From Candidatus Woesearchaeota archaeon (GTDB taxonomy: Archaea; Nanobdellota; Nanobdellia; Woesearchaeales; 21-14-0-10-32-9), in assembly GCA_020854775.1 (NCBI GenBank), contig JAHKLZ010000005.1:1-49796 (forward strand): a stretch of 49,796 nt of DNA, read 5' to 3'. Positions 28,195-33,523 of this stretch are shown here, piece by piece. The notes beneath the pieces are model-generated. The model was not told the origin of the DNA. It saw nothing but the letters and a program-made list of their open reading frames with translations, and ran no database searches. Both the position numbers and the translations under genes were made by a program. Numbering within the stretch: position 1 is the first letter of the stretch; each line of letters begins with the position of its first letter.

Positions 28195-28995
28195 TTACAA
28201 AGAATCTAAAGGACTTATAACTTTCTTTTTATGTTCAGAACTAACATGAGTATATATTTGAGTAGTTTGTAAATTACTATGCCCTAATAATTCTTGAATA
28301 ACTCTTATATCATTACCTGTTTCTAATAAATGTGTTGCGAAACTATGTCTTAAAGTATGAGGTGTAACTTTTTTAGATATATTTGCTTTACTAGCCGTTA
28401 ATTTAACGATTTTTTGTATATTCTTAGTAGAGAGTTGTCCATTTCGTCCTGAAAATACGTATTCAGATTGTCTTGGAAGTTTTTTTAATAAATCAGATAA
28501 TGCTTCTGACAATATTATCATCCTGTCTTTTTGGCCTTTTCCGCTTCTCACCCAAGCTATTTTTTCATCCAACTCTAAATTATTCCATTTTAAATTTACG
28601 AGCTCTGAAACCCTTAAACCAGATGAATAAAGTAACATCATCATTAATTTTGATTTTTTCGCACTACTGTGCTCCAACAATCTCTTAACTTCTTCTTTTG
28701 TCAATACTGTTGGAAGAGAAGCAGTTATCTTTGGCGTTTTAATATTAACAAAACCTTTTTCTAAAACGTTGTTGTAAAAAAACAATAAAGCAGATCTTGC
28801 CAAATTCAGAGTTCTTGGCGATAATCTTTTTTCAGTTATTAAATGAGCTAAATAAATCTTTAAATCATTAGCTATTATTTCTTCAGGTTTTTTCTTTAAG
28901 AACTCTAAACAATCCAAATTATATTTTATGTATGATTCTATTGTTGATCCGCTGTAACCTCTTAATTTTAGTTCGGCTTCTAGCAATTTCATCAT
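28195..28995 (-). CDS. xerA: XerA-type tyrosine recombinase
   Basis: 266 residues. The N-terminal SAM-like core-binding domain spans ~1-90, the catalytic domain ~95-266. The full catalytic set can be read: Arg128 (SGLRVSEL), Lys153 (SGKGQKD), His213 and Arg216 (TPHTLRHSF), His239 (LLGHSN) and Tyr248 (TQIYTHVS). Such recombinases resolve chromosome dimers at a dif site or act on integrated elements. A dif-like site lies 54 bases upstream of its start (29049-29076), an arrangement known for single-recombinase Xer systems in bacteria (XerH/difH, XerS/difSL). The - strand coding sequence is less biased than its neighbours. ATG at 28995 or 28992. Confidence 0.93.
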   Translation of the reverse strand: MMKLLEAELKLRGYSGSTIESYIKYNLDCLEFLKKKPEEIIANDLKIYLAHLITEKRLSPRTLNLARSALLFFYNNVLEKGFVNIKTPKITASLPTVLTKEEVKRLLEHSSAKKSKLMMMLLYSSGLRVSELVNLKWNNLELDEKIAWVRSGKGQKDRMIILSEALSDLLKKLPRQSEYVFSGRNGQLSTKNIQKIVKLTASKANISKKVTPHTLRHSFATHLLETGNDIRVIQELLGHSNLQTTQIYTHVSSEHKKKVISPLDSL

Positions 28996-29048: not shown

Positions 29049-29076
29049 AGTTACCATAATGTATATTGTGCGAACT
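29049..29076. other. dif: Putative dif recombination site
   Basis: Left arm AGTTACCATAA (11), spacer TGTATA (6), right arm TTGTGCGAACT (11): exactly the 11-6-11 format of dif. The right arm, reverse complemented, matches the left at 8 of 11 positions. The core CATAATGTATATT is identical to the core of the Escherichia coli dif sequence as I recall it, and the right arm ends in AACT as in Bacillus dif. It is embedded in a larger inverted repeat (AAAAGTT ... AACTTTT, 29047-29080). Location just upstream of xerA strengthens the call. Strand skew does not change sign here, so a terminus role is not shown. Confidence 0.7.
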
Positions 29077-29080
29077 TTTA

Positions 29081-29090
29081 ACTATTTATA
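29081..29090 (-). promoter_or_regulatory. TATA box of xerA
   Basis: Minus strand reads TATAAATAGT. Transcription would start some 25 bases downstream, within the dif-like site, so XerA bound at the site could repress its own gene. Inference from spacing only. Confidence 0.5.
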
Positions 29091-29108
29091 TGTTTCGGTT
29101 TTATACTG

Positions 29109-29121
29109 TTCTCGACGAGAA
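29109..29121. repeat. 13-bp perfect palindrome
   Basis: TTCTCG and CGAGAA around a single A. It stands out as GC-containing in very AT-rich DNA, 33 bases beyond the dif-like site. A second imperfect palindrome (AAAGGCCGGACTTT) is at 29160-29173. Confidence 0.65.
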
Positions 29122-29571: not shown

Positions 29572-30663
29572 ATGGGTAAAGAAAAATTATTAGATGTTGA
29601 ATCTGATGACTTACGAGATGCTATTGAACGACTTAAGAATTGTGCTACTAATAATGATTTATTAAGAGAGACTAATGATTTGATTAAGAAAGTTGAACAA
29701 ATTTATAGTAAAAAAAGCAGTACTAATCTTGATGAAGATACTGAAACTAATAAGGAATTAAATAATTCTTTTAGTGATGTTGAAACTTCTACTATGAATT
29801 TAAAAAATCAAGCATATGATGTGTTGAGTAATTTCTTAGGTATTGATATGTATAAATTAGAGAATAAAAGACAATTAAAAAAAGCTTATAGTTCTCTTGA
29901 TGTTTTAAAGAAAGATATTAAAGTTCTTGAGAAAGCTTTGAATGGAGAGGAAGTTTATAATCCTCCTAGTTTGAATAATGCTGAATTGCTTAGGTACATT
30001 AATAGTGTTAGTCCTAAAAGGAAAGGTTTGTATTTTCGTGATAGTGAGCTTAAAGATATAAATTTGATGTATAGATCTCAAGAAATTGAGTTGAATAATA
30101 GAATTGATTTGTTTGAACAACAAATTGATGATATAGATAATAAGTTGACTGATATTAAAAGTTCTGATATTAAGTCTGCTAGGATTTTAAGTAAAGAAAG
30201 AACTAATTTGTTAAGGATGCTTGATTCTTATCAGAGAAAAGTTGAAGATATTAATAATGATATGAACAAATACATTATTGATCATAAAATTGTTGAGAAT
30301 ATGATTTATGAATATTCCACTATTTTGAATACTGGTAGGAATTTGTATAATAATGTTGAGCTTAGTCTTAGTATCGTTGGTTCTGATTTATCTCCTGAGG
30401 GTAAGACTTTGGAGCAAGCTATTGATAGTTTGAAAACTGTTAAGAATATTAGTGAAAAGTTCAGATCGTTCATTAATAAGTATGCTGTTGAAAAAAAATC
30501 TAGGAATAGTCGTTTGTGTGATGAAGTTAATAAAGTTGTTAGTGATGATAATGGTGAAGAATTGTCTGATAGTATTACTAGGATTAATAAGCAGTTGTAT
30601 AATTCGTCTAAGTCTAATATGAAGGCTATGCGTGATACTTATTTTAATAATCTTGGTTTTTAA
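29572..30663 (+). CDS. Coiled-coil protein of unknown function
   Basis: 363 residues, almost entirely helical and charged, with heptad-like stretches at about 95-125, 175-260 and 275-310. No transmembrane helix or cysteine. Not recognised. ATG is preceded by AGGTGAT. It is the first gene after the xerA/dif region and is followed in the same direction by two ATPase genes, so it may be their substrate, adaptor or structural partner. Codon use is richer in A than the T-rich genes downstream. Confidence 0.65.
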   Translation: MGKEKLLDVESDDLRDAIERLKNCATNNDLLRETNDLIKKVEQIYSKKSSTNLDEDTETNKELNNSFSDVETSTMNLKNQAYDVLSNFLGIDMYKLENKRQLKKAYSSLDVLKKDIKVLEKALNGEEVYNPPSLNNAELLRYINSVSPKRKGLYFRDSELKDINLMYRSQEIELNNRIDLFEQQIDDIDNKLTDIKSSDIKSARILSKERTNLLRMLDSYQRKVEDINNDMNKYIIDHKIVENMIYEYSTILNTGRNLYNNVELSLSIVGSDLSPEGKTLEQAIDSLKTVKNISEKFRSFINKYAVEKKSRNSRLCDEVNKVVSDDNGEELSDSITRINKQLYNSSKSNMKAMRDTYFNNLGF

Positions 30664-30693
30664 TTTTTTTTATTTTTTTGGGGGTGCTTTATT

Positions 30694-32169
30694 ATGAGTT
30701 TGGATGATGTTTTAAGTCCTGATTTGGTTAAGAAAAATAAAAGATTTGTTGTTAAAGAGTATTCTAGTTTTTTGAATTCTCAGAGTTTTAGTTGTAATAT
30801 TAAAGATGTTGATTATGTTAAAAATCATCAGTTATTGTTTCTTGGTGGTTTTTATGCTGCTAAGGATTCTTTGTCTGGTGATGTTAAGCATCTTGATGAT
30901 TCTTTTCAGAGAATGTATTTTTCCGCGGTTAGTTCTGTTAATTTGTTGAATTCTTTTGAGGGTGTTGATTTTGGTTTTCCTTTGAATTTTGGTTCTTTGA
31001 ATTTTTCTGTTAGTGATTATGAGTCTAATTTGAGAATACTTAAGAAACACGTTGATGAAGTTAGTAAATATGATGATTTTGTTAATTCTTCTTATTCTTA
31101 TTTTTGTGGTTTGAATGATTTTTTGTTTTCTTTTTTGAAGGATTCTGTTGATGATAAATTAATTAAGTTTAAAGATCGTAAATCTAAGATTAATGGTTCT
31201 AATATTGTTCCTGTTAAAGTTAATGGTGTTGATTCTGTTGATTTAGAGAATATTAGTTTTGTTGAGACTTCTTATGATGATATTATTGGTAATGTTGTTG
31301 TTAAAGATTCTTTGGATTTGTCTATGCGTAAGCTTTTTTTGTATAATTCTGAACGGAAAAATAATCCTGCTCTTGAGAAGATGCAGTTTAAGCAGAATTT
31401 TTTGTTGGTTGGTGAGTCTGGTAATGGTAAAGGTATGCTTGCGGCTTATGCTGCGAGTGTTGGTTCTGATTTGGCTAGTAAGCTTGATAAGGATTTAAGG
31501 ATTGTTTCTATGGAGAATAATTCTAGTTATCAGGACGGTCCTATTCTTAAGTTGTTGAGTTATTTAAAGAATATTTCTAATAGTGATGATTTGTTTCTTG
31601 TTATTTTGGATGAGGTTGATTCTGTTTTTTCTTCTAGGGTTGATTATAAGACTCAGAATTATCAGAAAAAATTGGTTACTGAGTTGTTGAAGTTTACTAG
31701 TAATTCTGTTGAGTATGTGAATAAAGGTAATTATGTTTTAATTGCTATGACTAATACGCCTAATCAGTTAGATCCTGCTTTTCTTAATCGTTTGAATAAA
31801 GGTACTTATTTATGTGAGGGTCCTAAGTCTGTTGATGAGAAAATTTTGCTTGTGAAGAATTTGATTTATAAGTTGGTTCCTGATGATGTTGTTCGTGTTA
31901 AGGATTGGAATAAAATTGGTGGTGTTGCGTATGATTTAGGACTTTCTGGTAGGGAGCTTAAGGATTGTGTTGAGAATTTGTTTGAGTCTAGTTGTTTAAA
32001 TGGTCTTCCTAGTAATATTTATGGTTTGGATTATGATAAGCAGTTATCTTTTTTTAATGATTTTAAAGTTATTGATGATTCTGTTATTCTTGATGGAATT
32101 ATTAAGACGGGTGAGCGTAGAAAAGTTGATAATTATTTGTTGAGGGGTGGTTATGTTGAGTCTGTTTAA
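30694..32169 (+). CDS. AAA+ ATPase with atypical Walker A
   Basis: 491 residues. The first ~190 are unassigned; the ATPase module spans ~195-460. Walker A reads GESGNGKG at 240-247, with Gly where Ser/Thr normally follows the lysine. Walker B is FLVILDEVDS (Asp306, Glu307), sensor 1 is AMTN (351-354), and an arginine-finger-like NRL follows PAFLNRL (to 367). LSGRELKDCVENL (~425) fits the sensor 2 helix of FtsH/Cdc48-like AAA proteins. Loss of the Walker A hydroxyl would weaken magnesium binding. The end overlaps the next ATPase gene. Function unknown; a remodelling or motor role is inferred from family. Confidence 0.75.
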   Translation: MSLDDVLSPDLVKKNKRFVVKEYSSFLNSQSFSCNIKDVDYVKNHQLLFLGGFYAAKDSLSGDVKHLDDSFQRMYFSAVSSVNLLNSFEGVDFGFPLNFGSLNFSVSDYESNLRILKKHVDEVSKYDDFVNSSYSYFCGLNDFLFSFLKDSVDDKLIKFKDRKSKINGSNIVPVKVNGVDSVDLENISFVETSYDDIIGNVVVKDSLDLSMRKLFLYNSERKNNPALEKMQFKQNFLLVGESGNGKGMLAAYAASVGSDLASKLDKDLRIVSMENNSSYQDGPILKLLSYLKNISNSDDLFLVILDEVDSVFSSRVDYKTQNYQKKLVTELLKFTSNSVEYVNKGNYVLIAMTNTPNQLDPAFLNRLNKGTYLCEGPKSVDEKILLVKNLIYKLVPDDVVRVKDWNKIGGVAYDLGLSGRELKDCVENLFESSCLNGLPSNIYGLDYDKQLSFFNDFKVIDDSVILDGIIKTGERRKVDNYLLRGGYVESV

Positions 32170-33523
32170 TTCTTTGTCTGATGCATTGAAGGATCGGTTA
32201 AAGTCTTATGTTGATGTTGATAAGAATGATTCTTCTTTAATTAGTAGGATTAATCAGAAGAAGGATTTTGAGCGTGTTGCTTCTTTGCTTGATTTGGATG
32301 TTGTTAAGTCTAGGAAGTTGTCTCTTGATTTTGTTTCTGAAGAGCCTAAAAATGTTTTTCTTGATTTAAGTGATAAAAATAAGGATGATGATTCTGCTGA
32401 AGATGTTGTTGATGAGAATAATTTTTCTTTTAGTTTTAAAGAAGATGTTAGTCTTGGTTGTGTTTCTTTTGATGATGTTCTTTCTTATTTTCGTGGTAGG
32501 GGCGTGGTTGGCGAGGAATCTTTGTGTTTAAAGATTTTTTTAGCTGCTTCTAATAATTTGTCTTTTGGTGTTGAGGGTTTTAGTGGTTCTGGTAAGACTT
32601 TTGTTGTTGATAAGCTTATTGATTTGTTTGATGTTAATGATTTATATCGTCTTGATTTGAGTTCTAAGATGGCTGTTTTTTATGATTCTAAAAATATTAA
32701 TGGTTTTAGGACTATTTATATTCCTGAGTTGCAAAAGGCTTTGCAAGATACGAAGTCTCCTATTGTTGAGGTTGTTAAGAATCTTACTGAGGGTAAAGAT
32801 GTTAAGCGAGTTGTTACTGATTATAAAAATAAAGGTAGTAAAGTTTTTAATATTACTAAGGGAAAGTCGGTTATTTATACTCTTGCTTCTGAGAATTATT
32901 TTAAGAAGGATGAAGAGCTTAATCGTCGTTTTTTGAGATTTAAAACAAATAGTAGCGAGGAACATTTGGATGATGTTCTTAATAGTAAGTCTTTGAAGCG
33001 TCAGGATTTTTCTTTTTTTGAGGATGTTGATTCTTTAAAGTCTAAGTTAAAAAATTATTTTGGTTTTTTGAGGAACTTGGACGTTAAGATTTTTGATCCT
33101 TATTGTTCTTATTTGTCTGATTTTTTGCCTAGGACTCAGAAGTCTGTTGGTTATGTTGATCATTATTTTTCTTTGGTTGATGCTGTTACTCGTTTTAATT
33201 TTAAGGATAGGTTTTTGTTTAAGTATGGTGATAAAGACGTTGTTGTTTCTGAGTTGGAGGATCATTTCGTTGTTCATAAGCTTTATTATTCTGAGTTCTT
33301 GGATACTTTAAGTGGTTTTAGTGAGCGTAATAATTTTGATGATGAATTATTGTTAATTCAGGATTTGAGAAAGAAGTTTGTTGATTGGGACGTTGCATTT
33401 AGTAAAGGCTTAGAAGTTAGTAAGAATAATTTAGGTGATAATTTTTATAAGTATGTTTCCAGGCTTAATTCTAATAATTATGTTCATGATATGAAAGAGA
33501 AGTATTCTTTTTTGAGTTATTAA
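32153..33523 (+). CDS. P-loop ATPase, AAA+/helicase-like
   Basis: About 456 residues. An acidic N-terminal ~130 residues (KNKDDDSAEDVVDENN) leads to a P-loop GFSGSGKT at 142-149, a possible Walker B (FRTIYIPELQ), a segment TEGKDV, then VIYTLASEN and ELNRRFLRF, which resemble sensor and arginine-finger elements. The order recalls MoxR-like or phage/plasmid helicase-type ATPases but I cannot assign a family. Start uncertain: GTG 32147, ATG 32153 or TTG 32156, all overlapping the previous gene; GAGGGGTGG just upstream favours the latter two. Coupled with the upstream AAA+ gene. Confidence 0.65.
   Translation: MLSLFNSLSDALKDRLKSYVDVDKNDSSLISRINQKKDFERVASLLDLDVVKSRKLSLDFVSEEPKNVFLDLSDKNKDDDSAEDVVDENNFSFSFKEDVSLGCVSFDDVLSYFRGRGVVGEESLCLKIFLAASNNLSFGVEGFSGSGKTFVVDKLIDLFDVNDLYRLDLSSKMAVFYDSKNINGFRTIYIPELQKALQDTKSPIVEVVKNLTEGKDVKRVVTDYKNKGSKVFNITKGKSVIYTLASENYFKKDEELNRRFLRFKTNSSEEHLDDVLNSKSLKRQDFSFFEDVDSLKSKLKNYFGFLRNLDVKIFDPYCSYLSDFLPRTQKSVGYVDHYFSLVDAVTRFNFKDRFLFKYGDKDVVVSELEDHFVVHKLYYSEFLDTLSGFSERNNFDDELLLIQDLRKKFVDWDVAFSKGLEVSKNNLGDNFYKYVSRLNSNNYVHDMKEKYSFLSY

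Follow-up and report, generated by a model that had tools for sequence, protein, structure and literature searches.

Is the 28-bp palindrome in front of a tyrosine recombinase gene in a woesearchaeal archaeon a chromosomal dif site, and if so, to what kind of Xer system does it belong? The palindrome was found in a 49,796-nucleotide stretch of Candidatus Woesearchaeota archaeon DNA, referred to below as the window, where it occupies positions 29049–29076 (AGTTACCATAATGTATATTGTGCGAACT). Read on the minus strand, i.e. in xerA orientation, it consists of AGTTCGCACAA TATACA TTATGGTAACT, in which two 11-bp arms, symmetric at 8 of 11 positions, flank a 6-bp spacer (29060–29065, minus strand). Its 13-base core CATAATGTATATT is identical to the core of Escherichia coli dif (as printed in PMC3025954), and the whole 28-mer agrees with both E. 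coli and Bacillus subtilis dif at 20 of 28 positions as written and at 21 of 28 in the reverse orientation. The gene behind it, xerA (28195–28995, minus strand), is complete and encodes a 266-aa tyrosine recombinase with the catalytic residues R128, K153, H213, R216, H239 and Y248; its ATG lies 53 bases from the site. An initial annotation had proposed the 11-6-11 structure, the arm symmetry, the bacterial-type core and the placement just before a complete XerA gene, all of which we confirmed in the window sequence.

The 28-mer was the sole match at up to 3 mismatches in the 1.18-Mb genome (a 58-contig draft), whose host is an archaeon by both SSU and LSU rRNA; genome sizes throughout the phylum sample searched were 0.4–2.1 Mb, which fits DPANN. 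By a position-weight matrix built from 39 sites, with the window's own family excluded, the site scored 26.9; the runner-up in the 264-kb contig reached 9.6, and the highest score in 40 shuffled versions of that contig was 15.6. It also topped the covariance-model matches genome-wide (30.8 bits versus 22.0 for the next), and is thus the single best match that the initial annotation had asked to test for. The surrounding region has only 24–25% GC, so that a palindrome could arise by chance in such AT-rich intergenic DNA, but the score far exceeds those of the shuffles and the site is conserved across families, making a chance origin practically negligible. Bacterial sigma-70 promoters or terminators occurred at the site no more than expected by chance, and no known RNA family was found in the window.

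The neighbouring protein is a genuine archaeal XerA. It passed the archaeal XerA model NF040815 (250.6 bits, cut-off 220) and scored far below the cut-offs of the XerC and XerD models, its six catalytic residues (the R-K-H-R-H-Y set) were invariant among 29 relatives, and its closest solved structures were the XerA proteins of Pyrococcus abyssi and Thermoplasma acidophilum. In a maximum-likelihood tree it was placed in an archaeal clade, near these two enzymes and the bacterial chromosomal Xers. The initial annotation had also raised the possibility that the Xer module was captured from bacteria, which the E. coli-type core might suggest. However, window-type (class-1) xerA genes fall in the archaeal clade with XerA-type relatives, their identity to the window gene decreases with taxonomic rank (71% within the genus, 65–67% within the family and 47–60% within the order), the xerA promoter is archaeal, and the dif consensus is common to the phylum and to two euryarchaeal contigs, so that a recent bacterial capture appears very improbable. 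The lone 'bacterial' row in the clade may be misbinned: this 3.6-kb Patescibacteria MAG contig (L053), which bears a weak dif-like site, has an xerA inside the archaeal clade that may reflect either misbinning or transfer.

FtsK-gamma was detected in none of 8 genomes, with positive results for the bacterial controls, and a search for the FtsK ATPase gave weak partial matches only. The best reading is thus an FtsK-free single-recombinase XerA/dif module, inherited vertically rather than captured from bacteria; the one-recombinase system put forward by the initial annotation is the simplest reading of a single-copy dif that stands beside xerA and is conserved in relatives. The 28-mer is probably the chromosomal dif, at which XerA would bind, recombine and resolve chromosome dimers. 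In such a system the neighbouring xerA would encode the sole cognate recombinase, and XerA monomers would occupy the two near-symmetric arms; in a chromosome dimer, two dif sites would synapse and XerA would exchange strands across the 6-bp spacer, yielding monomers without FtsK. The arms of the archaeal sites were alike at 8.6 of 11 positions on average, versus 6 of 11 in E. coli dif, arm columns 7 and 22 co-varied (8 of the 22 sites had T-A and 7 had C-G), and two-sided arm changes in these 22 sites numbered 18, compared to 8.9 after shuffling. Arms that are alike and co-vary fit a single recombinase acting on both.

The same genome encodes a second full-length Xer-like recombinase (on contig C25) plus other integrases. 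This second Xer class (L032–L051, e.g. G000:C25:78552-79325) shares about 40–46% identity with XerA, is frequent within the order and falls mostly elsewhere in the tree, apart from XerA; its genes often lie at the ends of contigs, and repeated CACTGGACA motifs stand in front of several copies. We considered these enzymes as users of the window dif and rejected them because most lack a strong site, the exception being G049, in which the xer frame is divergent and a strong dif site is present. They probably represent a different recombination system.

Homologues of xerA were present in 84 of 99 relatives (E ≤ 0.001). When the 29 closest relatives were scanned, dif-like 28-mers preceded xerA in the window's genus as well as in many other families, and all three other members of the window's own family for which a close xerA was fetched had one. 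The distance to the gene was mostly 60–150 bp and in some cases 300–450 bp; in the first scan, 11 of 29 close xerA homologues had no strong site in the roughly 1.5 kb preceding them. The search was then widened to 279 genomes of the phylum with a covariance model (R1) derived from 22 sites, mostly xerA-linked, of 20 genomes, 13 of which belong to the 279-genome sample. This gave 66 sites in 64 genomes (E ≤ 0.02), and 215 genomes had no site at this threshold with stricter filters. At least 57 of the 66 sites were on the contig of an xerA-like gene and at least 49 within 5 kb upstream of one, while none was within 5 kb downstream among the xer matches listed; when the 13 training genomes were left out, at least 36 of 53 sites were within 5 kb upstream of a xer gene. 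Since the xer positions are those of the best-scoring matches listed, unlisted genes could add further dif–xer links. Conservation beside xerA in relatives, which the initial annotation had wanted checked, is supported. Unlinked exceptions (G093, G110, G215 and others) retained the 28-mer geometry, and a bacterial-like dif also precedes xerA on one Methanosarcinales and one Methanomicrobia contig.

What the initial annotation missed is that dif is embedded in the core promoter of xerA and follows immediately on its predicted TATA box. This box (TATAAATA on the xerA strand; 29083–29090, minus strand), recognized by its consensus match and conserved spacing, starts 14 nt before dif, and a putative BRE-like stretch, CCGAAAC (29093–29099, minus strand), is located upstream of it. 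In archaea, transcription generally begins some 25 nt downstream of the centre of the TATA box, and by this geometry the predicted xerA start falls inside or near dif, in or close to its 6-bp spacer. At 21 of the 29 loci with dif within 500 bp of xerA, a TATA box started 8–16 nt ahead of dif. The pattern had first been noticed in about half of the loci tested, and the near loci fetched thereafter showed it in 6 of 9 cases. By contrast, none of 15 loci with dif more than 500 bp from the gene had it (near versus distant, Fisher p = 2e-6), shuffles gave a mean of 1.8 and a maximum of 7, and equal windows further upstream gave 0–5. Across loci, between about 24 and 476 bp separated dif from the start codon, indicating that dif is tied to the promoter and not to the start codon.

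A position fixed relative to the TATA box would also be expected if the palindrome served only as a transcriptional operator of xerA, for XerA itself or some other regulator, and took no part in recombination. This is unlikely, because the single 28-mer persists away from the promoter (on another contig in G093, at 32 kb in G164 and at 1–9 kb in many genomes), where it is never behind a TATA box, and because the archaeal matrix gives E. coli dif a score of 20.8 and B. subtilis dif one of 14.3. A recombination site that also acts as an operator is a different matter: since dif covers the predicted transcription start, XerA should autorepress. XerA bound at dif would block xerA transcription and thereby couple the level of the enzyme to how fully its site is occupied, an autoregulation that the promoter geometry makes plausible, though we stop a little short of calling it probable.

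Other elements of the xerA upstream region were also inspected. A second palindrome, TTCTCGACGAGAA (also given as TTCTCGTCGAGAA; 29109–29121), is the sole copy in the genome at up to 1 mismatch. We ruled it out as a dif accessory site, since in relatives (L270, L277 and L272) it also precedes gyrB, a TFB gene and further genes; it is probably an operator for xerA, bound by some transcription factor. A conserved membrane protein with two helices and about 80 aa is encoded between dif and xerA in three families (f36, f41 and f60), as the first gene after dif at loci L150, L180, L260, L136, L168, L179 and L135. Strong matches to it elsewhere are rare (G028), and it is a possible membrane partner of XerA. 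On the other side of dif, the window carries a run of three genes (29572–33523) encoding a 363-aa unknown protein, a 491-aa AAA ATPase with weak similarity to CdvC and a 458-aa unknown protein; this run has no clear family, and the relatives compared did not show it next to xerA.

The relatives have xerA and the site in common, whereas their flanking genes differ, which could be taken to mean that a mobile element uses the two for its integration, as an integrase with its attachment site or an integron-like attI. In addition, G242 has two dif-like sites (G242:C23, L209:4389-9435; scores 32.0 and 17.4) 5.0 kb apart around eight ORFs, mostly without Pfam match. Against a mobile module, dif is present in single copy with no attC-like repeat array beside it (short AT-rich repeats only), and xerA identity tracks taxonomic rank, so that vertical inheritance together with fluid gene order is likelier than transfer; the fluid gene order of these genomes may suffice to explain the differing flanks. 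Integrons are further set apart by an IntI with an extra domain, whereas the 266-aa XerA stayed below the integron-integrase cut-off (222 versus 265) and matched in two separate stretches. We consequently consider a mobile module quite improbable and retain the vertically inherited XerA/dif module. Elements may nevertheless make use of dif. The ORF block of G242 is possibly an element integrated at dif, and contig ends within 50 bp of dif (G307:C12:4, G289:C28:14680 of 14707 and G261:C8:47) may be population variants joined there; the double site and these contig ends give a hint that elements use dif. A strong dif-like site also lies beside terminase-like and portal-like ORFs in IMGVR_UViG_3300006802_000042 (L278:4150-4177), a candidate for a virus integrating at dif. 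A viral origin of the system was rejected, as one IMG/VR contig had this pattern and XerA was undetected on its examined stretch.

XerA/dif systems have been described in Thermococcales, where the site is unlinked to the gene, and in Sulfolobales, where it is linked (PMC2958812), and Xer systems have been reviewed in PMC5357621 and PMC8371274. The P. abyssi system is likewise described as a single XerA with one copy of a 28-bp 11-6-11 site and no FtsK. The window system shares these traits along with the catalytic set; however, dif is linked to xerA here, and P. abyssi dif (ATTGGATATAATCGGCCTTATATCTAAA) is unlike the window dif in sequence, scoring −6.1 on the matrix, so that the difference from the Thermococcales site expected by the initial annotation was borne out. 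For Sulfolobales, the likeness rests on the described location of dif close to xerA; a flank of 13 bp on one side has been reported in that group, and the description that we consulted in PMC2958812 mentions no TATA–dif arrangement. The linkage itself had been presented as more novel than it is: it is conserved, but with Sulfolobales and the two euryarchaeal contigs also linked, it is not of a new kind. Bacterial XerCD/dif, with which the window dif shares its core, relies on two recombinases, distinct arms and activation by FtsK-gamma, whereas here one XerA, similar arms, no FtsK-gamma and a site linked to the gene were found. The XerS/difSL system of streptococci and lactococci also has a single recombinase gene adjoining its own site (PMC5357621); difSL differs in that it is atypical, spanning 31 bp around a centre of 11 bp, and needs FtsK (PMC5357621), and XerS is only distantly related to the window XerA (P0001, 81.7 bits; cut-off 267 bits). 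In working principle, therefore, the system is of the archaeal XerA/dif kind, and its new arrangement is a dif within the core promoter of its own recombinase. We found neither a dif description for DPANN nor a Xer recombinase for Nanoarchaeota in the open-access literature; with the search confined to that literature, the DPANN-type sites and the TATA–dif promoter overlap can be called new only provisionally.

Unlike P. abyssi dif, the window dif is not at a skew switch: no change in sign of GC or TA skew was seen along the 264-kb contig, which extends 29 kb from dif in one direction and 235 kb in the other, and hence there is no sign of a terminus there. The whole contig (G000:C5 1-264338) has a strong, uniform excess of T over A and mostly of G over C. 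In G268, a complete 535-kb contig, dif is unique (33.7 versus 8.4 for the next) and lies 3.8 kb from orc1/cdc6 and 32–40 kb from the cumulative GC-skew maximum. Outside the window's order, orc1/cdc6 was within 15 kb of dif in 13 of the 28 genomes of the class that have a site, compared to 0 of 20 inside it. Distances of 1.4–13.4 kb were observed in G268, G266, G260, G299, G204, G233, G170, G193, G131, G100, G307, G261 and G293.

These results extend dif to a phylum for which we found no prior description in the open-access literature, and the matrix can now be used to locate dif in many draft genomes. More tentatively than for autoregulation at this locus, we suggest that throughout a large clade of small-genome archaea dif may be the operator of its own recombinase, with XerA occupancy repressing xerA and this feedback replacing control by FtsK, and that in sister orders the module may be positioned beside orc1/cdc6 rather than defined by the terminus. 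The dif sites near orc1/cdc6 in those orders challenge the assumption that a terminus location is obligatory, and the joining of dif to the xerA core promoter would provide a simple control circuit for dimer resolution in archaea lacking FtsK.
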